Source: an uncultured Bacteroidales bacterium
Lineage (GTDB): Bacteria; Bacteroidota; Bacteroidia; Bacteroidales; Muribaculaceae
Length of the DNA stretch: 10,634 nucleotides
Assembly: GCA_945828175.1 (NCBI GenBank)
Contig: CALZQD010000027.1
Span: 1 to 10,634 of the forward strand
Reading direction: 5' to 3'
Positions within the stretch are counted from its first letter, which is position 1; every line of letters starts with the position of its first letter. This document shows positions 1,375 through 10,634 of the stretch, one piece after another. The translations under genes were made by a program, and so were the position numbers. The notes under the pieces are model-generated. The model searched no databases. It was not told the DNA's origin and was given only the letters and a program-made list of their open reading frames with translations.

Positions 1375-4089
1375 ATGACAGATATAAACGACAGTCAATA
1401 TAACGACGAGGAGAACGACAACGAGTTTACCGAGGGCAACGAGGCTCAGGGCGACGAGCGCCTGATGTCGGTCGCGCGCGACGGCGATATGGTCAAATAC
1501 CACCTCCGCGGCATGTACCGCAACTGGTTCCTCGAATATGCCTCTTATGTGATACTCGAGCGCGCCGTGCCGCACATCGCCGACGGCCTCAAACCCGTGC
1601 AGCGCCGTATCCTACACACGATGAAGACTCTCGACGACGGCCGATTCAACAAGGTAAACAACATCGTCGGCTCGGCGATGCAGTATCACCCCCACGGCGA
1701 CGCGTCAATCACCGACGCACTCGTGCAGCTCGGCCAGAAAGACCTCCTCATCGAGAAGCAGGGCAACTGGGGCAATATCCTCACCGGCGCCTCGGCAGCC
1801 GCCTCGCGTTACATCGAGGCGCGCCTGTCTGAGTTTGCCCTCGAGACGCTCTACAACCCCAAGATCACCGAGTGGACCCCGAGCTACGACGGCCGCAAGA
1901 ACGAGCCCGTGACCCTGCCCGCCAAATTCCCGCTGCTGCTCGCCCACGGCGCCGAGGGCATCGCCGTCGGTCTGTCGTCGAAGATTCTGCCGCATAACTT
2001 CAACGAAATCATCGACGCAGCCGTCGCCTATCTCAGCGGCGAGGACTTCGTGCTTTACCCCGATTTCCCCACCGGCGGCTTCATCGACGTCTCGCGCTAT
2101 AACGAAGGCCGTCGCGGCGGCGCCGTCAAGATCCGCGCCAAGATTGAGAAGGTCGACAACCGCACCCTCGCCGTCACCGAGATACCCTACGGCAAGACGA
2201 CGGGCATCATCATCGACTCTATCCTCAAAGCCTACGAAAAAGACAAGATAAAGATACGCAAGGTCGACGACAACACGGCCGAAAAAGCCTGCATCCTCGT
2301 CCACCTCCAGCCCGGCACGTCGAGCGACAAGGCCATCGACGCCCTCTATGCCTTCACCGACTGCGAGGTCAGCGTCTCGCCCAACTGCTGCGTCATCGAC
2401 GACCGCAAGCCCTGCTTCCTCGGCGTCGACGACCTCCTGCGCCACAGTGTCGACTCGACCCGCGGCATCCTCGAGGCCGAGCTGCGTGTTCGCCTCGCCG
2501 AGCTTCAGGAGCAGAGGCTCTTCGCCTCGCTCGAGAAAATCTTCATCGAAGAGCGCATCTATAAGGATAAGGAATACGAGCAGGCGCCCGACATCGAGTC
2601 GGCCGTAAGGCATATCGACAGCCGCCTCGAGAAATACAAGCCCTCGTTTGTCCGCGAGATAAACGACGACGACATCCTCAAGCTCGTCGAGATCAAGATG
2701 AAGCGTATCTTCAAGTTCAGCTCCGACGAGGCCGACGACCGCATCGCCGAGCTCGACCGCAAGATTGCCGACGTCAACGACAAGCTCGCCCATATCGTCG
2801 ACTACACCATCGAATGGTATAAGCGCCTCAAGGCCAAATACGGCGACGCCTATCCCCGCCGCACCGTCATCCGCAATTTCGACAACATCGAGGCCGCCAA
2901 CGTCGCCGAGGCCAACGAGCGCCTCTATATCAACCGCGAGGACGGCTTTATTGGCACAGGCCTCAAGAAAGACGAATTCATCTGCAACTGCTCGTCGCTC
3001 GACGACATTATCATCTTCTACAAAGACGGCCGCTACAAGGTCGTCAAGGTTCAAGACAAGCTGTCGGTCGGCAAGAATGTGCTATATGTCAATGTCTTCA
3101 AGCGCAACGACTCGCGCACGATCTATAACGTCATCTACCGCAACGGCGCGGGCGGCATCTACTATATGAAGCGCTTCGCCGTCACGGGCGTCACGCGCGA
3201 CAAGGAGTATAACCTCACCCAGGGCCAGCCCGGCTCGAAGGTGATGTGGTTCTCGGCCAACCCCAACGGCGAGGCCGAGGTCGTCAAGGTGACGCTCAAA
3301 CCCAAGCACCGCCTCAAGACCCTCCAGTTCGACGTCGACTTCGCCAAGCTGGCCATCAAGGGCAAGCAGTCGCAGGGTAACCTCGTGACCAAGAACGAGG
3401 TGCATCGCTTCTCGCTCAAAGAGCACGGCGCCTCGACCCTCGGCGGACGCGAGGTATGGTTCGACCCCGACGTGCTGCGCCTCAACTACGACGGCCGCGG
3501 ACGCCTCCTCGGCGAGTTTATGGGCGACGATCTCGTGCTCGTCGTGCTCAAGAACGGCGAGTATTATACCACCGGCTTCGAGGCCACCAACCACTACGAC
3601 GACAATATCCTCAGAATCGAGAAGTTCCGTCCCAAACAGGTGTGGACGGCGATACTCTTTGACGCCGACCAGGGCTATCCCTATATCAAGCGCTTCATGT
3701 TCGAGCCCTCGGCGCGCAAGCAGCGCTTTATCGGCGACAACGAGCGCTCGTCGCTGATACTGCTCACCGACACTCCTCACGCTCGCTTCGAAGTCCGCTT
3801 TGCCGCGCCCGACGACTTCCGCGAGCCGCTCATCGTCGACGCTGAGAGCTTCATCGGCCTCAAATCCTTCAAAGCCAAGGGCAAGCGCCTCGTCACCTAT
3901 ACGCTCGACACTGTCACCGAAATAGAGCCGCTCATCGTCGACAGCGATGACGACGATGACGCCGCGACCTCCGACATCATCGCCGACGGCGACGAAACCG
4001 CCGATGGCGGCGCCTCGGCCCACGAGAGCGAAGACATTTCTGACGACGAGCTCCGTGACGAAATCACCGGACAGAAACGAATCTTCTGA
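1375..4089 (+). CDS. DNA topoisomerase IV / gyrase subunit A (type IIA, ParC-like)
   Basis: This is the DNA-breaking and rejoining subunit of a type IIA topoisomerase, acting with a B subunit not in the window. The 904-residue protein has a short acidic N-terminal extension (1-30), then the winged-helix core. PHIADGLKPVQRRIL (66-80) and YHPHGD (104-109) are classic, and AAASRYIEARL (141-151) carries catalytic Tyr146 preceded by Arg145. A coiled-coil-rich middle (about 375-480) is followed by a C-terminal beta-pinwheel region (about 520-850) and a strongly acidic tail from about 860. The canonical GyrA box (QRRGGKG) is absent, and IKGKQSQGN occupies a comparable loop, so a decatenating ParC-like role is more likely than gyrase. 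The E. coli GyrA Ser83 equivalent is Ala110 and the Asp87 equivalent is Asp114. The stop overlaps the next start by one base. Confidence 0.93.
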   Translation: MTDINDSQYNDEENDNEFTEGNEAQGDERLMSVARDGDMVKYHLRGMYRNWFLEYASYVILERAVPHIADGLKPVQRRILHTMKTLDDGRFNKVNNIVGSAMQYHPHGDASITDALVQLGQKDLLIEKQGNWGNILTGASAAASRYIEARLSEFALETLYNPKITEWTPSYDGRKNEPVTLPAKFPLLLAHGAEGIAVGLSSKILPHNFNEIIDAAVAYLSGEDFVLYPDFPTGGFIDVSRYNEGRRGGAVKIRAKIEKVDNRTLAVTEIPYGKTTGIIIDSILKAYEKDKIKIRKVDDNTAEKACILVHLQPGTSSDKAIDALYAFTDCEVSVSPNCCVIDDRKPCFLGVDDLLRHSVDSTRGILEAELRVRLAELQEQRLFASLEKIFIEERIYKDKEYEQAPDIESAVRHIDSRLEKYKPSFVREINDDDILKLVEIKMKRIFKFSSDEADDRIAELDRKIADVNDKLAHIVDYTIEWYKRLKAKYGDAYPRRTVIRNFDNIEAANVAEANERLYINREDGFIGTGLKKDEFICNCSSLDDIIIFYKDGRYKVVKVQDKLSVGKNVLYVNVFKRNDSRTIYNVIYRNGAGGIYYMKRFAVTGVTRDKEYNLTQGQPGSKVMWFSANPNGEAEVVKVTLKPKHRLKTLQFDVDFAKLAIKGKQSQGNLVTKNEVHRFSLKEHGASTLGGREVWFDPDVLRLNYDGRGRLLGEFMGDDLVLVVLKNGEYYTTGFEATNHYDDNILRIEKFRPKQVWTAILFDADQGYPYIKRFMFEPSARKQRFIGDNERSSLILLTDTPHARFEVRFAAPDDFREPLIVDAESFIGLKSFKAKGKRLVTYTLDTVTEIEPLIVDSDDDDDAATSDIIADGDETADGGASAHESEDISDDELRDEITGQKRIF

Positions 4090-4952
4090 TGAAACGCCTC
4101 TTTAATACAATCGCCCTGGCTCTCGCTACCATCGTCGCAGCGGCTCAGAGCGACAGCACCGCCGTCGAGCCTTTGCGTCCCGTCACCTCGGCCTACAGCC
4201 TTGAGTTTGGCTCGTCGCACCTCACCGACACCTATCTCACGCCGCTCAACTACGACGGCTCGACGGCTGCCATGTCATACGAGCGCCTGCAGGCCCCTCG
4301 CTTCAATCCCGAGGGATCCATCATGCAGTTGCGCGGACGTCTCGCGCTCGACCGCGATCAGAATCCGGCACGCAACGCTACGATGTGGGGTCTCGACCTC
4401 AACGTCGACTGGGGCGTCCTCTGGCGCTTGAAATCATTGCGTCTGCCGCAGGGTCTCGCCATCTCGGGCGGCTTCAACACAGGCCTCGACATCGGCGCGC
4501 TCTACCTCGCCCGCAACGGCAACAATCCCGTGACGGCCAAGGCCGCATGGACCGTCGGCATCAGCGCGATGGCCGTCTATAACTTCAGGCTCGGCTCGCT
4601 GCCGCTGACACTGCGCTATCAGCCCTCGATGCCGCTTACCGGTGTCTTCTTCTCGCCTGACTATGGCGAGCTTTACTACGAGATTTACCTCGGCAACCGC
4701 AGCGGCCTCGTCCACTGCGCCTGGCCGGGCAACTATTTCAGGCTCGACAATCTCCTGACCCTCGACCTGCGCTTCAAGGGCGCCACCCTGCGCCTCGGCT
4801 ATCACAACGAGGTCTTTTCGGGCAAGGTCAACAATATCGTCAGCGGCCACACCGTCCACAGTTTCGTCATCGGCCTCGCCAACGAGTGGATTTCGCTCTC
4901 GCCCCGGCGCAAGCTCTCTGATGACACTAAAATTATTTCAGCAATTTATTGA
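4089..4952 (+). CDS. DUF3316-like exported protein of unknown function
   Basis: The 287-residue protein begins with a good Sec signal peptide: MKR, a hydrophobic stretch (about 5-18), and a probable cut after about residue 20. It is therefore predicted to be in the periplasm or outer membrane. The mature part has alternating polar and hydrophobic strands and aromatic-rich segments such as YGELYYEIYLGN (192-203), consistent with beta structure and possibly a small outer-membrane barrel. Segments such as SSHLTDTYLTPLNY (42-55), QNPARNATMW (91-100) and FFSPDYGELYYEIYLGN (187-203) resemble, from memory, Bacteroides proteins of the DUF3316 family, whose function is unknown. Its ATG shares a base with the topoisomerase stop (TGATG), and its own stop overlaps the next start in the same way. 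It is probably translationally coupled to both neighbours. Length is typical for the family and nothing looks broken. Confidence 0.8.
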   Translation: MKRLFNTIALALATIVAAAQSDSTAVEPLRPVTSAYSLEFGSSHLTDTYLTPLNYDGSTAAMSYERLQAPRFNPEGSIMQLRGRLALDRDQNPARNATMWGLDLNVDWGVLWRLKSLRLPQGLAISGGFNTGLDIGALYLARNGNNPVTAKAAWTVGISAMAVYNFRLGSLPLTLRYQPSMPLTGVFFSPDYGELYYEIYLGNRSGLVHCAWPGNYFRLDNLLTLDLRFKGATLRLGYHNEVFSGKVNNIVSGHTVHSFVIGLANEWISLSPRRKLSDDTKIISAIY

Positions 4953-5965
4953 TGATTAAGAAAATACTATTGGCTCTGATTGCTTCGGTCGCGCTCTCAG
5001 CCTGTCATAAGACCGAAAAGTGGGACGCCGACGTCTACGGCAATTTCGATGCCCTGTGGACTATCCTCGACGAGCATTACTGCTTCTTCGAGCAGAAAGA
5101 CATTGACTGGGACGCCGTCTACAGCAAATACCACAAGCGCCTCGGCGACGAGATGACAGCCCGCGAGTTTTTCGACATCTGCTCCGACATGCTCGCCGAG
5201 CTCAAGGACGGCCACGTCAACCTCAGCTCGAGCTTCGACGTCTCATACTATCGCAAATGGTGGAGCGACTATCCCCAGAACTACGATTCGCGCCTCGTCG
5301 AGCAGTATTACCTCGACTTCGACTATTCGTCGGCCGGAGGCATGAAATATACCGTTCTGCCTCAGAATGTCGGCTATATCAACTACGCTTCATTCTCATA
5401 TATGGTGGGAGAGGGCAATCTCGACGCCATCCTCTACAGCTTCAAGCCCTGCCGCGGCCTCATCATCGATATCCGCGACAACGGCGGCGGCGACATGACC
5501 AACGTCGAGACAATCGTGCGCCGTTTCATCAACGAAAGGATTCTCGCCGGATACATCTCGCACAAAACCGGACCGGGCCACAACGACTTCTCCAAGCCCT
5601 ACGCCTATTACTTCGACCCCGCTCCCGCGGGCCGTCGCCGCTGGCTAAAGCCCGTCGTCGTGCTGACAAACCGCAGCACCTTCAGTGCCGCCAACAACTT
5701 CGTGTCGATAATGAAACTTCTGCCCAATGTCAAGATAGTCGGCGACCGCACCGGTGGCGGCAGCGGCATGCCCTTCTCGTCTGAGATACCCTGTGGCTGG
5801 GGCGTACGCTTCTCGGCCAGCTCGGTTCTCGACGCCCTCGGTCAGTCGACCGAAAGCGGCATCGACCCCTCGCCCGGATGCAAAGTCGACCTCGACCCCC
5901 TCAAAGCCCTCCAAGGCACCGACACCATGCTCGACAAAGCCATCGAAGTCCTGTTGGGGGAATAA
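4952..5965 (+). CDS. S41-family peptidase, predicted lipoprotein
   Basis: This is a predicted serine peptidase of the C-terminal-processing (S41/tail-specific protease) family, anchored to the envelope as a lipoprotein. MIKKILLALIASVALSAC has a lipobox with Cys18 as the lipidation site. The N-terminal helical part carries LKDGHVN (84-90). The S41 core follows: GYINYASF (141-148), RGLIIDIRDNGGG (168-180), VVVLTNRSTFSAANNF (235-250) with probable nucleophile Ser245, and IVGDRTGGGSG (262-272). The Lys general base of classical Ser/Lys CTP enzymes is not evident, as in some S41 subgroups. No PDZ domain is obvious. The start is the ATG at 4952, overlapping the upstream stop in TGATG; a TTG one codon earlier is less likely. 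The last 14 codons and stop are duplicated downstream with synonymous changes, which suggests an insertion at this gene end. Length is 337 residues. Confidence 0.9.
   Translation: MIKKILLALIASVALSACHKTEKWDADVYGNFDALWTILDEHYCFFEQKDIDWDAVYSKYHKRLGDEMTAREFFDICSDMLAELKDGHVNLSSSFDVSYYRKWWSDYPQNYDSRLVEQYYLDFDYSSAGGMKYTVLPQNVGYINYASFSYMVGEGNLDAILYSFKPCRGLIIDIRDNGGGDMTNVETIVRRFINERILAGYISHKTGPGHNDFSKPYAYYFDPAPAGRRRWLKPVVVLTNRSTFSAANNFVSIMKLLPNVKIVGDRTGGGSGMPFSSEIPCGWGVRFSASSVLDALGQSTESGIDPSPGCKVDLDPLKALQGTDTMLDKAIEVLLGE
5919..5965 (+). repeat. Left copy of 47-bp direct repeat (3' end of the S41 gene)
   Basis: Bases 5919-5965 recur at 6366-6412, an offset of 447. The first 34 bases are identical. Over the whole 47 bases I count four differences (5953, 5954, 5959, 5964). 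All are synonymous or swap one stop for another: both copies encode DTMLDKAIEVLLGE plus a stop, TAA here and TGA in the right copy. This copy forms the functional end of the peptidase gene. Confidence 0.93.
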
Positions 5966-5998
5966 TCACCGATATTCCACCATCTAAATGTTTTGATT

Positions 5999-6364
5999 AT
6001 GACTAAGATAGAAAATGAAAAGCAATATCAGTGGGCGGTAGAACGGGTGGAAAAATTATTACCGCTCGTTAACGACGATACCCCCGAGACCGATCCTAAC
6101 TACATAGAATTGGTCCTACTGTCTAATCTCGTCGCAGATTATTCCGACGAGCATTATTCTGTCGGTGATCCATCGCTGGTAGATGTTATGAAGCTTCGCA
6201 TGTATGAAATGGGCTTGACTCAGGCCTCGCTTGCCAAACTTATAGGCGTAAGCCCTTCACGCATTTGCGATTTTCTTTCAGGCAAAAGTGAGCCGACCAT
6301 GAAAGTCGGCCGAGCCATAAGTAAAAAACTCAACATTGACCCCGCGATAGTACTCGGAGTCTAA
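5999..6364 (+). CDS. HigA-like HTH (Xre family) antitoxin, orphan
   Basis: The predicted 121-residue DNA-binding protein resembles HigA-type antitoxins. Its N-terminal helical region contains NEKQYQWAVERVEKLL (6-21), like the EEQY segment of E. coli HigA. A C-terminal HTH (about 62-115) reads GLTQASLAKLIGVSPSRICDF (72-92) followed by LSGKSEPTM (93-101). HigA proteins normally neutralise a HigB mRNA interferase and repress their own operon, but no HigB gene is adjacent: only 33 bp separate this gene from the peptidase stop and no small toxin frame fits. The ATG at 5999 is preferred over an in-frame TTG at 5993. The stop at 6364 ends two bases before the right repeat. Base composition differs from the flanking G+C-rich genes, suggesting transfer. 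It could be a solitary regulator or an anti-addiction gene. The family call is good, the role uncertain. Confidence 0.82.
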   Translation: MTKIENEKQYQWAVERVEKLLPLVNDDTPETDPNYIELVLLSNLVADYSDEHYSVGDPSLVDVMKLRMYEMGLTQASLAKLIGVSPSRICDFLSGKSEPTMKVGRAISKKLNIDPAIVLGV

Positions 6365-6365
6365 T

Positions 6366-6412
6366 CCGACACCATGCTCGACAAAGCCATCGAAGTCCTC
6401 CTGGGAGAATGA
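6366..6412 (+). repeat. Right copy of 47-bp direct repeat (relict S41 gene end)
   Basis: This copy lies just after the HTH gene stop, with 34 bases identical to 5919-5952 followed by a diverged 13-base end. It would still encode DTMLDKAIEVLLGE and a TGA stop but has no gene upstream to continue, so it is now a non-coding remnant. Its TGA directly touches the stop of the convergent phosphatase gene, as expected for the ancestral gene end. Confidence 0.9.
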
Positions 6413-7162
6413 TTAATTAAACGCTTTATCGTTGAGGATGCGGCCTTTGAGGCGGTCGCGGTCCTTGAGATAGTCGCTCGACGCAAGATAGCGGTCGATG
6501 ATGTCGGCGTGAGCCGCGTTGTGGAGGTCGGTACCGACGAAATCAACCAAACCCTTTTCAATCAGCATCTCCGCGATTTTGCGCTCATCCTTGCCATAAC
6601 CTCCGGCAAGACTCAGCACATTGATCTGGAACATCGCTCCGGCGTTATGAAGCACCTCATAGCGCTCGGGGTGCTTATAATAATATGAGTAGCGCTCGGG
6701 ATGGACGAGGATAGGGCGCAGCCCGCGCACCTGCAGGTCGAAGATGACGCTGTCGAGATTGCCCGGCTCGCGCACAAACGGATTTTCGATAAGGATATAA
6801 TTGTTAGGCAGAGTCATAAGACGCTCAGCCTCAAGCTCGCGGGCGAAAAGGTCGTCGATGCGATACTCCGCCGAATTCTCTATGACAATATCAGTCCCGT
6901 CGTCAGCCAAAGCCTTTTTCAGAGCCTCGCGGGCAGCGCCGACCGTCTCAGGCGTGTTCGGGAACGTCAGGTTCGTCACATGCGGACTCGCGATGATTCG
7001 CTCCAGACCCCAAGCCTTCATGCGCTTGATCAGCTCGATCGACGTCGCCGCGTCAGGCGACCCGTCGTCGATGCCCGGCAGCACATGACAGTGGATGTCG
7101 GTTTTGAAAAAAAACTCCTGAGGCTCAACCGCCCCCTTCGACCTCTTGAATATATTGAACAT
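6413..7162 (-). CDS. CpsB/YwqE-like PHP-family tyrosine-protein phosphatase
   Basis: A metal-dependent phosphatase of the PHP fold, of the type that dephosphorylates bacterial tyrosine kinases controlling capsule or exopolysaccharide export (CpsB, YwqE); it is cytoplasmic. In the 249-residue protein, metal-binding motifs appear in order: TDIHCHVLPGIDDG (21-34, His24 and His26), ASPHVT (58-63, His61), NSAEYRIDD (96-104, Glu99), LVHPERY (152-158, His154) and VGTDLHN (209-215, Asp212 and His214). LIENPF (124-129) is also typical. All metal ligands expected for the family appear present, and length matches the roughly 240-260 usual for it. No tyrosine kinase or polysaccharide gene is in the window, so its partner is elsewhere. 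It runs convergently into the S41/HTH unit with no intergenic gap and diverges from hsdM. The ATG at 7162 is supported by the upstream -7 box. Confidence 0.92.
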   Translation of the reverse strand: MFNIFKRSKGAVEPQEFFFKTDIHCHVLPGIDDGSPDAATSIELIKRMKAWGLERIIASPHVTNLTFPNTPETVGAAREALKKALADDGTDIVIENSAEYRIDDLFARELEAERLMTLPNNYILIENPFVREPGNLDSVIFDLQVRGLRPILVHPERYSYYYKHPERYEVLHNAGAMFQINVLSLAGGYGKDERKIAEMLIEKGLVDFVGTDLHNAAHADIIDRYLASSDYLKDRDRLKGRILNDKAFN

Positions 7163-7272: not shown

Positions 7273-8811
7273 ATGATAACAGGACAGATAAAGAATCAGA
7301 TAGATCAGATATGGGATATTTTCTGGCAGAGCGGCACTACAAACCCCATGACCGTTCTCGAGCAGATGACCTATCTCTTTTTCATAAAGATGCTTGACGA
7401 TGCGCAACTTGATCGCGAAGCTATTTCAAATCAGCTCAATATAGACTATTCTGCTGAAGATACATATTCATATGGCACTTGGTATAATCCCGAAACCAAG
7501 CAGAAAGTGCCCGTCGAAAATCTCCGCTGGCATGTATTCAAGCATTTCGAGCCTGATGAAATGTACCGCACGATTCAGCGCGACGTTTTCCCTTATATCA
7601 AAACATTAAACCGTGGCGAGGATTCTGCTTATTCGCGATTCATGGGTAATGCAACTTTCATGATTGCTTCGCCTCGCGCCCTTGTCAGAATTGTCGACGG
7701 CATCGACACTCTCGATATGAAAGACCGCGATACTATGGGCGACGTCTATGAATATATCCTCGGCAAGATGGCCGCGAGTGGCAAAAACGGCCAGTTCCGT
7801 ACGCCCCGCCACATTATCCGCATGATGGTCGAGATGATGCAGCCCTCGCTGAACGACACCATCTGCGACCCGGCAATGGGCAGTGCCGGCTTTATTGTCG
7901 AAGCCGCCAAATATATAAAAGCCCATTATAAAAACGAACTGATGCAACGTCGAAACGATGAGCATTTCCGTCACACGATGCTTCACGGCTTTGACACCGA
8001 CCAGACCATGCTCCGCATTGGTGCCATGAATCTGATGCTGCACGATATCAGCAACCCCGACGTTGCCTTCCGTGATTCGCTTTCAACCGATAACACCGAC
8101 ACCGACCGCTATACCCTTATTCTCGCAAACCCGCCGTTCTCGGGCAGTCTCGACAACGAGGCAGTCGCCAAGTCGCTTCTCGCCATTGCCAACACCAAGA
8201 AAACCGAGCTGCTTTTCATCTCGCTTTTCCTCCGCTCGTTGCAGATTGGTGGCCGCTGTGCCTCCATCGTCCCTGACGGCGTTTTGACTGGTACATCAAA
8301 TGCCCACAAGGCTGTCCGCAAAGCCATTATTGACGGCAACCGTCTCGAAGCAGTCATCTCTATGCCTTCAGGCGTATTCAAACCCTATGCCGGAGTCTCC
8401 ACCGCCATCCTCATCTTCACAAAGACCGGAGCCGGGGGCACCGACAAGGTATGGTTCTACGACATGAAAGCCGACGGTTTTTCGCTCGATGATAAACGTA
8501 ATCCAATCGCCGACAATGACATCCCCGACATCATCGCCCGTTTCCGTACACTTGTAGGGACGCACGGCTCGTGCGTCCAATCGCCCGAAGCATCGCGAAA
8601 ACGAACAGACCAATCCTTCCTTGTCCCGGTCGAAGAAATCCGCGAGCACGACTACGACCTCGCTTTCAACACCTACAAAGAGACAATCCGCGAAGTCGTG
8701 GAATACGAAGCCCCCGAAGTACTTATCGGTCGAGCTGCTGCTCTCGCCGCCAAAATTACCGACGGCATCAATTCACTTCAATCTCTAATCGCCGCAGACC
8801 ATGAAGCATAA
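7273..8811 (+). CDS. hsdM: Type I restriction-modification methyltransferase subunit HsdM
   Basis: This is the N6-adenine methyltransferase subunit of a type I RM system, which works with HsdS to methylate its target site and with HsdR to restrict. The 512-residue protein has the HsdM N-terminal helical domain (about 1-140), then GQFRTPRHIIRMMV (173-186). SAM-binding motif I is DPAMGSAGF (199-207), a variant of the more common DPACGTAGF, and catalytic motif IV is NPPF (286-289). The C-terminal segment DYDLAFNTYKE (460-470) corresponds to the DYDLSxNRYKE block of related HsdM proteins. Residues 427-441, between IARFR and RKRTDQSF, look like an in-frame insertion. A perfect DNA palindrome encodes part of it, and related proteins as I remember them have a shorter linker there. 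Activity is probably kept, since the insert sits outside the catalytic motifs. It overlaps hsdS by 11 bp. Confidence 0.96.
   Translation: MITGQIKNQIDQIWDIFWQSGTTNPMTVLEQMTYLFFIKMLDDAQLDREAISNQLNIDYSAEDTYSYGTWYNPETKQKVPVENLRWHVFKHFEPDEMYRTIQRDVFPYIKTLNRGEDSAYSRFMGNATFMIASPRALVRIVDGIDTLDMKDRDTMGDVYEYILGKMAASGKNGQFRTPRHIIRMMVEMMQPSLNDTICDPAMGSAGFIVEAAKYIKAHYKNELMQRRNDEHFRHTMLHGFDTDQTMLRIGAMNLMLHDISNPDVAFRDSLSTDNTDTDRYTLILANPPFSGSLDNEAVAKSLLAIANTKKTELLFISLFLRSLQIGGRCASIVPDGVLTGTSNAHKAVRKAIIDGNRLEAVISMPSGVFKPYAGVSTAILIFTKTGAGGTDKVWFYDMKADGFSLDDKRNPIADNDIPDIIARFRTLVGTHGSCVQSPEASRKRTDQSFLVPVEEIREHDYDLAFNTYKETIREVVEYEAPEVLIGRAAALAAKITDGINSLQSLIAADHEA
8558..8578 (+). repeat. Perfect palindrome inside hsdM (9-bp arms, 3-base loop)
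   Basis: GGACGCACG at 8558-8566 and its exact reverse complement CGTGCGTCC at 8570-8578 flank the loop GCT. The element is read in frame through hsdM codons 429-435 (GTHGSCV). Its composition and the flanking TGTAG suggest a dispersed palindromic repeat of the kind scattered in some Bacteroidota genomes. This is from memory and untested. Confidence 0.75.
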
Positions 8812-9952
8812 CTGGGAGTATAGGCAACTGGGCGAAATTTGCGAAATATTAGATTCGCAACGGAAGCCTGTCACAAAAAGTGATAGGATTCCTGGTCCTT
8901 ATCCCTACTACGGAGCATCAGGGATTCAGGACTATGTTTCGGATTATATTTTTGATGGAGATTTTCTCCTTGTCGGAGAAGATGGCGCAAAATGGGGAGC
9001 CAACGAAAAAAGTGCATTTTCTATTTCTGGAAAATCTTGGGTAAATAATCACGCTCATATCCTTGACTTTAAGAAAAGTCGAGTCTCTCAAAAACTTGTT
9101 GAATATTTCTTATGTGGTTGCGACCTCAATAAGATTATTACTGGAACAATAGTTCCAAAATTAACTCAAAAGAATCTCGTCTCAATTCGTATTCCTGTGC
9201 CGCCGATGGAGGTGCAGGAGCAGATTGTTGCGGAGCTTGACAAGATAAACGAGACGATTGAAGATTGCCGCGAGTTGCTTCGCAACCTCGACGCCCTCGC
9301 TCAATCTCTTTTCTACGATTACTTCGGTGATATTTACACTAATCCCAAAGGCTGGGTTACCTGTAAATTAGGTGATGTGTCAGAAAAGATTTCAAACGGT
9401 GCTAATACCAAAATTGAACTTGATACATACAAGACCGAGGGCATTATGTTCTTTCGTTGTCAAAATGTATGGCGAAATAGGTTTGACTTGTCGGATATAG
9501 TTTTCGTAGATGACGAGACAAATTCAAAAATGAAGGGCTCAATCTTAAAACATAATGACTTATTAGTCACTAAGATTGGCCGTTTATTTACAGAAAACAG
9601 TAGCTTAGGTCGTGTAGCTTTATACGAAGGTGAAGACTATAAGGCAAATTTGAGCGGCAATTTGAGCTTTATAAGACTTAAACCAATCGTTGCCCCCAAA
9701 TTTATACTTTATATTCTCATATCAGACTATTTTCGAGATTATGTGCGTAATACTACCTCGGGAGGTATTGATAAACGCGCTTTGAATAATTCTCAACTTA
9801 AAGAGCTACAAATTTATCTACCTCCGCTTGAACTTCAAGAGAAATTCGCCGCACGGATGGAAGAGATTGAGGCTCAAAAGAAAATTGTCGAGGATACGAT
9901 CGCAGAACTGCAAACGCTTCTCGACAGCCGCATGGACTATTGGTTCAACTGA
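8801..9952 (+). CDS. hsdS: Type I restriction-modification specificity subunit HsdS
   Basis: It provides target recognition for the HsdM/HsdS methylase and the full HsdR-containing enzyme. The 383-residue protein has the standard two-part layout. TRD1 (about 1-130) begins WEYRQLGEICEIL and contains GPYPYYGASG (32-41) and LLVGEDGAKWG (56-66). A central conserved helical spacer (about 131-178) contains PPMEVQEQIVAELDKINETI. TRD2 (about 184-340) begins GWVTCKLGDVSEKISNG. The distal conserved region is PPLELQEKFAARMEEIEAQKK (341-361) with a helical tail to 383. The two TRDs predict a bipartite target, but the bases cannot be read from sequence. The TRD-coding stretches are richer in A+T than the spacer, in line with TRD exchange by recombination. 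No second hsdS or inverted repeat is seen. The ATG at 8801 lies inside the last codons of hsdM, so the genes are likely coupled. Confidence 0.95.
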   Translation: MKHNWEYRQLGEICEILDSQRKPVTKSDRIPGPYPYYGASGIQDYVSDYIFDGDFLLVGEDGAKWGANEKSAFSISGKSWVNNHAHILDFKKSRVSQKLVEYFLCGCDLNKIITGTIVPKLTQKNLVSIRIPVPPMEVQEQIVAELDKINETIEDCRELLRNLDALAQSLFYDYFGDIYTNPKGWVTCKLGDVSEKISNGANTKIELDTYKTEGIMFFRCQNVWRNRFDLSDIVFVDDETNSKMKGSILKHNDLLVTKIGRLFTENSSLGRVALYEGEDYKANLSGNLSFIRLKPIVAPKFILYILISDYFRDYVRNTTSGGIDKRALNNSQLKELQIYLPPLELQEKFAARMEEIEAQKKIVEDTIAELQTLLDSRMDYWFN

Positions 9953-9967
9953 AAAAACTCTCTTGAT

Positions 9968-10588
9968 ATGGAACATGACAACTTACGGAATCCGGCTTTT
10001 GTGAAACGCGACAGCATCGTTAGCGGCAAAGAATACGCTCAGCTGCTCGGGCGCCTGAAAGAACGTTTCCGCCGCTCGCAAATCAAGGCAGCTGTAAAGG
10101 TCAATACCGAAATGCTGGAATTTTACTGGTCGATGGGCCGGGAAATATCACAACTCTATCAATCGGCTAAATGGGGCACTGCATTTTTCGATTGCCTCAG
10201 TCTTGATTTGAAAACCGAGTTTCCCAATCAGACAGGCTTTTCATCTGCAAATATTCGATACACCAAACGCTGGTTTGAGTTTTATAATCAGCGAGATATA
10301 ATTCTTCACCAACCTGGTGAAGAATTTCGTCAGCAAGCTGTTGACGAATTAGAAATGCCTGTTGAGTTTGGTCAAGTGCCGTGGAAACATCATGTTTATA
10401 TCTTTACCCATTCCAAATCTGTGGCTGAGGCATTGTTCTATATCGACAAGACGATAGCGAACGGATGGAGCCGCGCAGAACTTGAAGCGGAGATAGACGA
10501 TGACCTTTTCAGCAAGGAGGGAAAAGCAATAACCAATTTCGACGAGAAACTACCCGCTCCTTACAGCGGACTTGCCAAGGCCATACTC
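9968..10588 (+). CDS. DUF1016/YhcG-like PDDEXK nuclease-family protein, N-terminal part (cut by contig end)
   Basis: A partial gene starts at the ATG at 9968, 15 bp after the hsdS stop, and reads MEHDNLRNPAFVKRDSIVSG. Genuine sequence gives 207 residues ending in GLAKAIL at 10588. What follows is adapter, so nothing beyond should be translated. The N-terminal region resembles the DUF1016 (YhcG) family. EYAQLLGRLKERFRRSQIKAAVKVNTEMLEFYW is a helical segment at about residues 22-54; FSSANIRYTKRWFEFY (about 92-107) and VPWKHHVYIF (about 139-148) match the usual family blocks. In full-length members a C-terminal PDDEXK nuclease-like domain follows; it is absent here. Such genes are frequent companions of type I RM loci, though their role is poorly defined. 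It probably shares the hsd operon, with hsdR perhaps further downstream. Confidence 0.85.
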
Positions 10589-10634
10589 CTGTCTCTTATA
10601 CACATCTCCGAGCCCACGAGACGTAGAGGAATCT
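10589..10634 (+). other. Illumina Nextera adapter, i7 index and P7 start (non-genomic)
   Basis: CTGTCTCTTATACACATCT begins at 10589. It is the Nextera mosaic end in read-through orientation, followed by CCGAGCCCACGAGAC (10608-10622), the rest of the read 2 adapter. GTAGAGGA (10623-10630) sits in the i7 index position and matches, from memory, index N712. ATCT (10631-10634) is the expected start of the P7 tail. These 46 bases are a library artefact at the contig end. Confidence 0.98.

Follow-up and report, generated by a model that had tools for sequence, protein, structure and literature searches.

The window analyzed here, a complete contig of 10,634 bp, contains the last 47 bp of an S41 peptidase gene twice, at 5919–5965 and at 6366–6412, and between the two copies lies a solitary HigA-like antitoxin gene that is preceded by a remnant of a higB toxin gene. 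The same site is uninterrupted in relatives, and similar arrangements are found around toxin-antitoxin (TA) modules at unrelated loci. We consider it rather likely that a higBA module arrived together with a foreign S41 end and displaced the native end, as an insertion with a long target duplication, and that the toxin was deleted later. The relevant features are as follows.

4949..5965, plus strand, S41 peptidase gene, the target (from the ORF list; PF03572, E=8e-28; PF14684)
5919..5966, plus strand, left copy of the gene end, an identical stretch of 34 bp (5919–5952) followed by 13 bp with four silent or stop differences
5966..5974, plus strand, 9-bp junction from the S41 stop to the higB remnant, where intact higBA loci would have the higB promoter and 5' part, both absent here
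5975..5987, plus strand, remnant of the higB 3' end, TTCCACCATCTAA, identical at 13 of 13 positions to the same place in locus L035
5999..6364, plus strand, higA, a solitary HigA-like HTH antitoxin gene (PF01381, E=3e-11)
6366..6412, plus strand, right copy of the gene end, taken as the displaced native S41 3' end from the contact of its stop with the phosphatase stop and from the uninterrupted relatives
6413..7162, minus strand, CpsB/CapC-type phosphatase gene, convergent with S41 (PF19567, E=8e-43)

The duplicated gene end and the higB remnant

The contig belongs to a 1.9-Mb genome assembled in 316 contigs and 82% complete, and its S41 protein has its closest named relatives in MAGs labeled uncultured Bacteroidales or Muribaculaceae. 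Its gene order runs from a gene that we take to encode a topoisomerase/gyrase subunit A-like protein through DUF3316, the S41 peptidase, and the HTH gene to the convergent phosphatase, and the DUF3316–S41 order is common to the window and its relatives. The stretch after the phosphatase (7273–10588) holds type I modification and specificity genes, with no sign of a restriction subunit in the window, and then a DUF1016/PDC-S02 gene truncated by the contig end. Rfam returned no RNA family in the window. The final stretch, 10589–10634, resembles an untrimmed Nextera transposase adapter with its index, so the last codons of the ORF at 9968–10633 are probably not genomic. Both this contig end and the fragmentary assembly would suit a chimera of two strains, formed during assembly or amplification of an uncultured genome, but such an artifact is scarcely credible as the source of the repeat, given the similar flanking duplications in other genomes and the fact that 34 bp is short for a joining error.

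The duplication around a lone HTH gene, which the first-pass annotation had reported, is confirmed. The repeat finder aligns 5919–5966 with 6366–6413 at 44 of 48 positions (92%). Within this alignment an exact core makes up 34 of the 47 bp (5919–5952 = 6366–6399), and the 13 bp beyond it contain four differences, every one of them silent or an exchange between TAA and TGA, which a codon comparison confirms as first described. The codons concerned are CTG/CTC, TTG/CTG, GGG/GGA, and TAA/TGA, and both copies encode DTMLDKAIEVLLGE* with the amino acids unchanged. None of the first 10 codons differs and four of the last five do (clustering P = 0.0037), while a set of four random single-base changes would be silent throughout with a probability of ~0.0024. 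The repeat scores 40 against a maximum of 20.5 in 1681 cross-pair comparisons, so chance is no explanation for it.

The main rival to an imported gene end is a plain target duplication followed by drift. According to this history, which is the simplest one, the native end was copied once and the four differences arose later in a single lineage. We judge it unlikely, since all four differences would have had to fall within the last five codons, and since all four are silent although the right copy lies outside any gene. If the left end were foreign and a crossover had taken place within the identical block, silent-only differences beside such a block would be expected. This pattern makes it probable that the left copy was imported with the insert, as had been proposed, and the S41 gene now probably terminates in an imported 3' end.

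According to the ORF list and Pfam, the insert contains one HTH_3 gene, higA, which starts 33 nt downstream of the S41 stop. The short higB remnant at 5975–5987 was overlooked in the first-pass annotation. When the remnant was compared with 24 other loci, the score of its match to L035 was reached by 0 of 500 shuffles and the match to L048 gave p = 0.008, with the remaining 22 loci above 0.02; L033, which encodes the closest HigA in the genus, has no significant match (p = 0.188). The stop of the remnant lies 11 nt ahead of the higA start, and this gap measures 10–12 nt in 9 of 11 loci that have higB, the two exceptions having 16 and 3 nt. Intact higB loci also have an upstream segment that is presumably promoter-like, and this segment is absent in the window. 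Since the 13 bp upstream of higA are those of a relative's higB 3' end, the insert corresponds to a higBA operon without its promoter and toxin. Judged by its sequence, it is a decayed two-gene operon and no natural one-gene cassette. The gene itself is identified as a HigA antitoxin, an HTH_3 protein of ~120 aa with higB directly in front of its gene, by PF01381, by higB upstream in homologous loci, and by the 13-bp higB tail; with ~13 bp of higB recognizable, the module has no intact toxin gene and does not qualify as a functional HigBA module. The antitoxin gene may be cotranscribed with S41 and probably depends on S41 transcription or read-through.

HigA homologues occur in 21 of 49 genomes of the genus (E <= 0.001) and in 65 of 397 genomes of the family (E <= 1e-40). 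Among 73 higA places in the family, 72 were used, one at a contig start (G036) being left out; lacking upstream DNA, L176 and L233 cannot score, and L224 has 74 nt. A HigB match lies directly upstream of higA in 61 of these 72 loci (the window counted among the 72) and is partial in six of the 61, and one relative's HigB corresponds to PF09907 with E=1e-32. Eleven loci have no HigB match, but the higB 3' tail is retained in 5 of them (L225, L223, L228, L178, and the window), L223 and L228 being near-identical to each other, and L231, though counted as having a HigB match, retains merely the tail. The tails in these five loci and in L231 indicate that loss of the toxin 5' part with the antitoxin kept is recurrent.

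The uninterrupted site and the polarity of the copies

An empty S41–phosphatase site, which had been proposed as a check on the insertion, is present in two related genomes. The phosphatase alignment begins 15 bp past the S41 stop in G044 and 213 bp past it in G013, with no ORF of 60 aa in between; the same place holds ~1.0 kb in G034 and ~2.1 kb in G033, the latter with an ORF that was named ATPase-like by eye. Neither higA nor higB was detected in the examined DNA of these four loci (13 kb each for G044 and G013; best E = 1.2). No HTH gene lies downstream of S41 in any of 109 S41 loci, a set of 80 named loci and 29 from the genus whose genomes partly overlap and several of which end a few hundred bases past the stop. 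P0001, the representative of the closest S41 protein cluster (94% identical), likewise ends in EVLLGE. Uninterrupted sites were found for two of the other loci described below, in G035 for a patatin-like gene and in G161 and G121 for a gene that we take to be gltD-like, and here too the examined DNA contained no higA or higB (best E 1.2).

The stop of the right copy (6410–6412) directly adjoins the stop of the convergent phosphatase gene. This stop-to-stop contact, together with the two uninterrupted relatives and with modest polarity evidence from G038, bears out the earlier view that the right copy is the original gene end. The flanked locus in G038, L182, can be compared with its sister genome G035, where the site is uninterrupted and the same gene is 91% identical. 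Past the stop, the right copy of L182 resembles G035 with p values of 0.017, 0.018, and 0.035 over 28, 40, and 70 nt, although over the first 24 nt shuffles are as good (p = 0.257), while the left copy has no resemblance to G035 (p 0.198–0.555). The right copy also has a CTG codon like G035, and the left copy has TTG like G033. Comparison of these sequences would therefore point to the polarity seen in the window, with the right copy native, and this support is modest because the G038 DNA further to the right of that copy has no match to G035. The evidence from L191 in G136 runs a little the other way. Its relatives G161 and G121 have the repeated block once within the 400 nt read; compared with G161, the left copy scores 32 and the right copy 22, and compared with G121 the scores are 22.5 and 22, so the left copy looks slightly more native, against the polarity of the window.

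Flanked modules elsewhere in the family

A comparison of the 500 nt upstream of the module with the 120 nt downstream of higA at the 72 loci placed six above the cross-pair maximum of 20.5: L191 (82.5), the window (40), L208 (33), L182 (30.5), L207 (30), and L206 (26.5). A broader comparison of 700 with 400 nt, for which 1261 null values had a maximum of 24, added L204 (41) and L205 (36.5). L207, whose repeat looks interspersed, and L205, whose repeat is the promoter of a second module, were left out. On this curation, 6 of 72 higA loci carry an imperfect duplication of an upstream gene end or terminator, and four of these, the window, L191, L182, and L204, are strong. The repeat at L191 is 156 bp long, with an identical right part and a diverged left part, and its right copy reaches the contig end; at L182 the end of a patatin-like gene is repeated with a terminator-like hairpin. 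Both of these loci thus have identical and diverged parts, as in the window, and the right copy begins 1, 5, and 6 nt past the higA stop in the window, L182, and L191, respectively. Direct repeats as expected of an insertion with a long target duplication flank the window module over 47–48 bp and the L182 and L191 modules over 81–156 bp. The repeats at L206 and L208 are hairpins. At L204, where ~165 bp are repeated, and at L206 the copies are diverged throughout, which speaks for plain duplication followed by drift.

Identical flanking repeats of at least 11 bp within 300 nt were found, among 22 loci of the genus, in the window only; in wider oriented flanks of the genus loci, identical repeats reach 17 bp, and the 17-bp repeat (L036) is the L182 case. 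In a same-locus null of 2103 values, two exceeded 26.5, both at loci that are themselves duplicated (L204 and L225). In L225 (oriented, reverse complement), a DUF1016/YhcG nuclease gene beside higA lies between 53-bp terminator repeats (2463–2515 and 3679–3731, 52 positions identical) near the end of what is presumably groEL, and a presumed groEL end also seems to adjoin higA in L035 and L044. The flanked nuclease gene implies that cargo other than TA modules can show such a repeat.

An unbiased scan of three genomes (2.0 Mb, 1661 ORFs, threshold score 28) gave 29 direct-repeat pairs, and when coding paralogues, tRNA, low-complexity, and interspersed pairs had been set aside, six were counted as noncoding or gene-end pairs around cargo. 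The six cargoes are a Fic gene, hicAB, a DUF234 ATPase, a DUF3990 pair, ssb–fabG (named by eye), and a 508-aa ORF. Toxin-like cargo makes up three of the six: the Fic gene, hicA with a hicB-like gene, which has no Pfam match and which we presume to be hicB, and the DUF3990–DUF3791 pair, which we assume to be TA-like. The Fic-family gene (L273) lies between repeats at 17120–17209 and 18498–18589, of which the first ~56 bp are identical; the DUF3990–DUF3791 pair at L319 (3305–4318), which has a weak match to an ART-like domain, lies between 63-bp repeats with an identical stretch of ~38 bp. At the scan threshold, 5 of 72 higBA loci compare with 6 of 1661 ORFs (p = 4e-5), or 4 of 71 with the window removed (p = 0.00045); all six curated loci would give p = 3e-6, but L206 scores about 26, below the scan threshold, and 5/72 is preferred.

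The same test, for gene-spanning repeats with a score of at least 26, was applied to higBA, to 26 of 28 HicA and 28 of 39 DUF3990 loci, and, as controls, to 28 of the 47 S41 orthologues and 21 of the 29 patatin loci. Repeats were found at 10 of 72 higBA, 6 of 26 HicA, and 2 of 28 DUF3990 loci and at no control locus (S41 0/28, patatin 0/21), which amounts to 18 of 126 against 0 of 49 before curation (p = 0.0039), with controls that are core genes at fixed places and so favor a difference. Several of these hits were discounted: L207 and L209, which look interspersed, L205 for its second-module promoter, and the coding duplicate L203 among higBA; L379 and L392, which are hicB/hicA paralogues, and L377, which is the tandem hicA region of L392, among HicA. 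The curated higBA loci stand out weakly from the 49 controls, with p = 0.08 (6/72), p = 0.078 without the window (5/71), and p = 0.15 for the strict four; the three TA families together give 9 of 126 (p = 0.063), or 11 of 126 (p = 0.036) if the ambiguous L389 and L424 are admitted, and these recurrences are small numbers whose repeat classes were partly judged by eye and post hoc.

Two hicAB loci and one DUF3990/DUF3791 pair look similar to the flanked higBA loci. At the hicAB locus L395, the gene end LRFKDIIFEE* is duplicated and the differences before the stop are again silent only, which argues against plain duplication with later drift. The target gene of L395 is shorter in G004, where its inner part is absent, and the outer 49-bp match is thus weaker evidence than the last 41 bp. 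At L376, which is part of a prophage-like stretch, the left copy does not coincide with the end of a complete gene.

Possible routes of insertion and relation to known systems

The window has the geometry of an element replacing its target's 3' end, and the identical 34-bp core could be read as an attachment site that mimics the gene end, belonging to a small element that was served by a recombinase in trans and later decayed. This is quite improbable. Allowing up to 3 mismatches, the core occurs twice in 397 family genomes, both times in the window and in none of the other 396; a 33-bp part of it has no match in viral contigs. There is no ORF in the insert besides higA, and no recombinase among the seven window proteins scanned (ORFs from 4089 rightward), in agreement with the earlier report of cargo without a recombinase. 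The absence of the core elsewhere and of a recombinase in the insert leaves a site-specific element unsupported, and flanked modules at unrelated genes with unrelated repeats would not be explained by one site-specific recombinase. The minimal trans-mobilized single-gene cassette with its own core that the first-pass annotation had envisaged is likewise not supported: the insert is the wreck of a higBA operon, the core is absent from the other family genomes searched, and the repeats elsewhere are unrelated to it. An integrase or satellite reading was rejected on the same empty searches. Nor does the insert look like an insertion sequence or transposon, which would have a transposase and a short target duplication of fixed length: higA is its one ORF, and the repeat of 47–48 bp has other lengths at other loci. 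An integron gene cassette would have an attC site common to cassettes; the flanking repeats seen here vary between loci and are gene ends or terminators.

Plasmids were rejected as a source, the HigA relatives in 70 plasmid records all being <60% identical, and so were phages, for which the best of five records is 76% identical and is an unannotated 4.9-kb record. Two viral contigs, L144 (2050–2719) and L145 (2702–3366), encode a HigA 59% and 53% identical to that of the window, each with a higB-like ORF in front of higA, as judged by eye. None of these relatives is close enough to be the source of the window higA. We also rejected a left end that was a higB-derived hybrid, in which LLGE-stop would presumably have had to be spelled in frame by chance.

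The reading that we favor is that a foreign gene end and module recombined into the locus, homologously on one side and illegitimately on the other, or that the module transferred had target repeats around it beforehand. A higBA module would have been pasted at the S41 3' end on the DNA of a related bacterium, with that bacterium's own S41 end beside it. A crossover within the 34-bp identical stretch would then fuse the host S41 gene to the foreign end, leaving the S41 protein unchanged, and at the opposite junction higA would be rejoined by its end to the S41 end, so that the native end was not lost but displaced rightward. This would yield an insertion whose long target duplication is a mosaic, and a later deletion might have removed almost all of higB together with its promoter, so that higA remained alone. 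The end of higA, AAACTCAACATTGACCCC, resembles the S41 sequence just upstream of the core, AAAGTCGACCTCGACCCC (p = 0.003; equaled by none of 303 other in-frame S41 windows), a similarity that was noticed post hoc and at the window locus only; it would be consistent with partial homology having guided the join.

A more general possibility, which we hold to be doubtful, is that TA modules of the Muribaculaceae move as recombinase-free cassettes that are released and re-enter as small circles through gene-end repeats. Recombination between the flanking repeats would free a circle, of ~450 bp here and ~0.9 kb for an intact module, which may then use the common repeat to insert at the same gene end of a relative. 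The gene end would be swapped silently and the native end kept behind, and each transfer would thereby leave a mosaic repeat.

In the literature searched, which included few subscription journals, we found no description of TA systems inserted with a long target duplication, and the novelty of such duplication around TA modules is provisional. A 2020 review describes the integration mechanism as unelucidated (PMC7167474). The duplicated ends around TA modules of this family are possibly the footprint of movement without an enzyme of their own, and the duplicated, partly mosaic gene ends at higBA, hicAB, and DUF3990 modules give that footprint a searchable and testable form. It implies that modules insert at the 3' ends of genes and leave the host gene unharmed.

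Insertion of restriction-modification units with a long target duplication was reportedly described by Nobusato 2000 and Furuta 2010, as cited in PMC3874152 and PMC3031569. Long and variable target direct repeats, on the order of 100 bp, there surround recombinase-free cargo. The window is similar in having cargo without a recombinase, long target repeats, and uninterrupted relatives, but its cargo is a type II TA module, and the repeats here are gene 3' ends or terminators that are partly mosaic, with identical and diverged stretches. Compared with HigBA modules (HigB_toxin PF09907 and HTH_3 PF01381), the window has the higA family, the spacing, and a higB remnant but neither toxin nor promoter, so that its antitoxin is solitary.

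Some integrative elements replace the 3' end of their target gene, such as e14 at icd and SGI1 at trmE. As with these elements, the gene end in the window has apparently been replaced with silent differences and the native end displaced, though the insert has no recombinase, shares no attachment core that we could find, and carries one small gene. Finally, antitoxins without a toxin are known as orphan antitoxins and anti-addiction modules (PMC2654758; also PMC7192599, PMC10790755). The window antitoxin is likewise without its toxin and captures decay at the point where the toxin has been lost and the antitoxin retained, and it differs from those cases in that a deletion scar and a flanking duplication show a possible origin.
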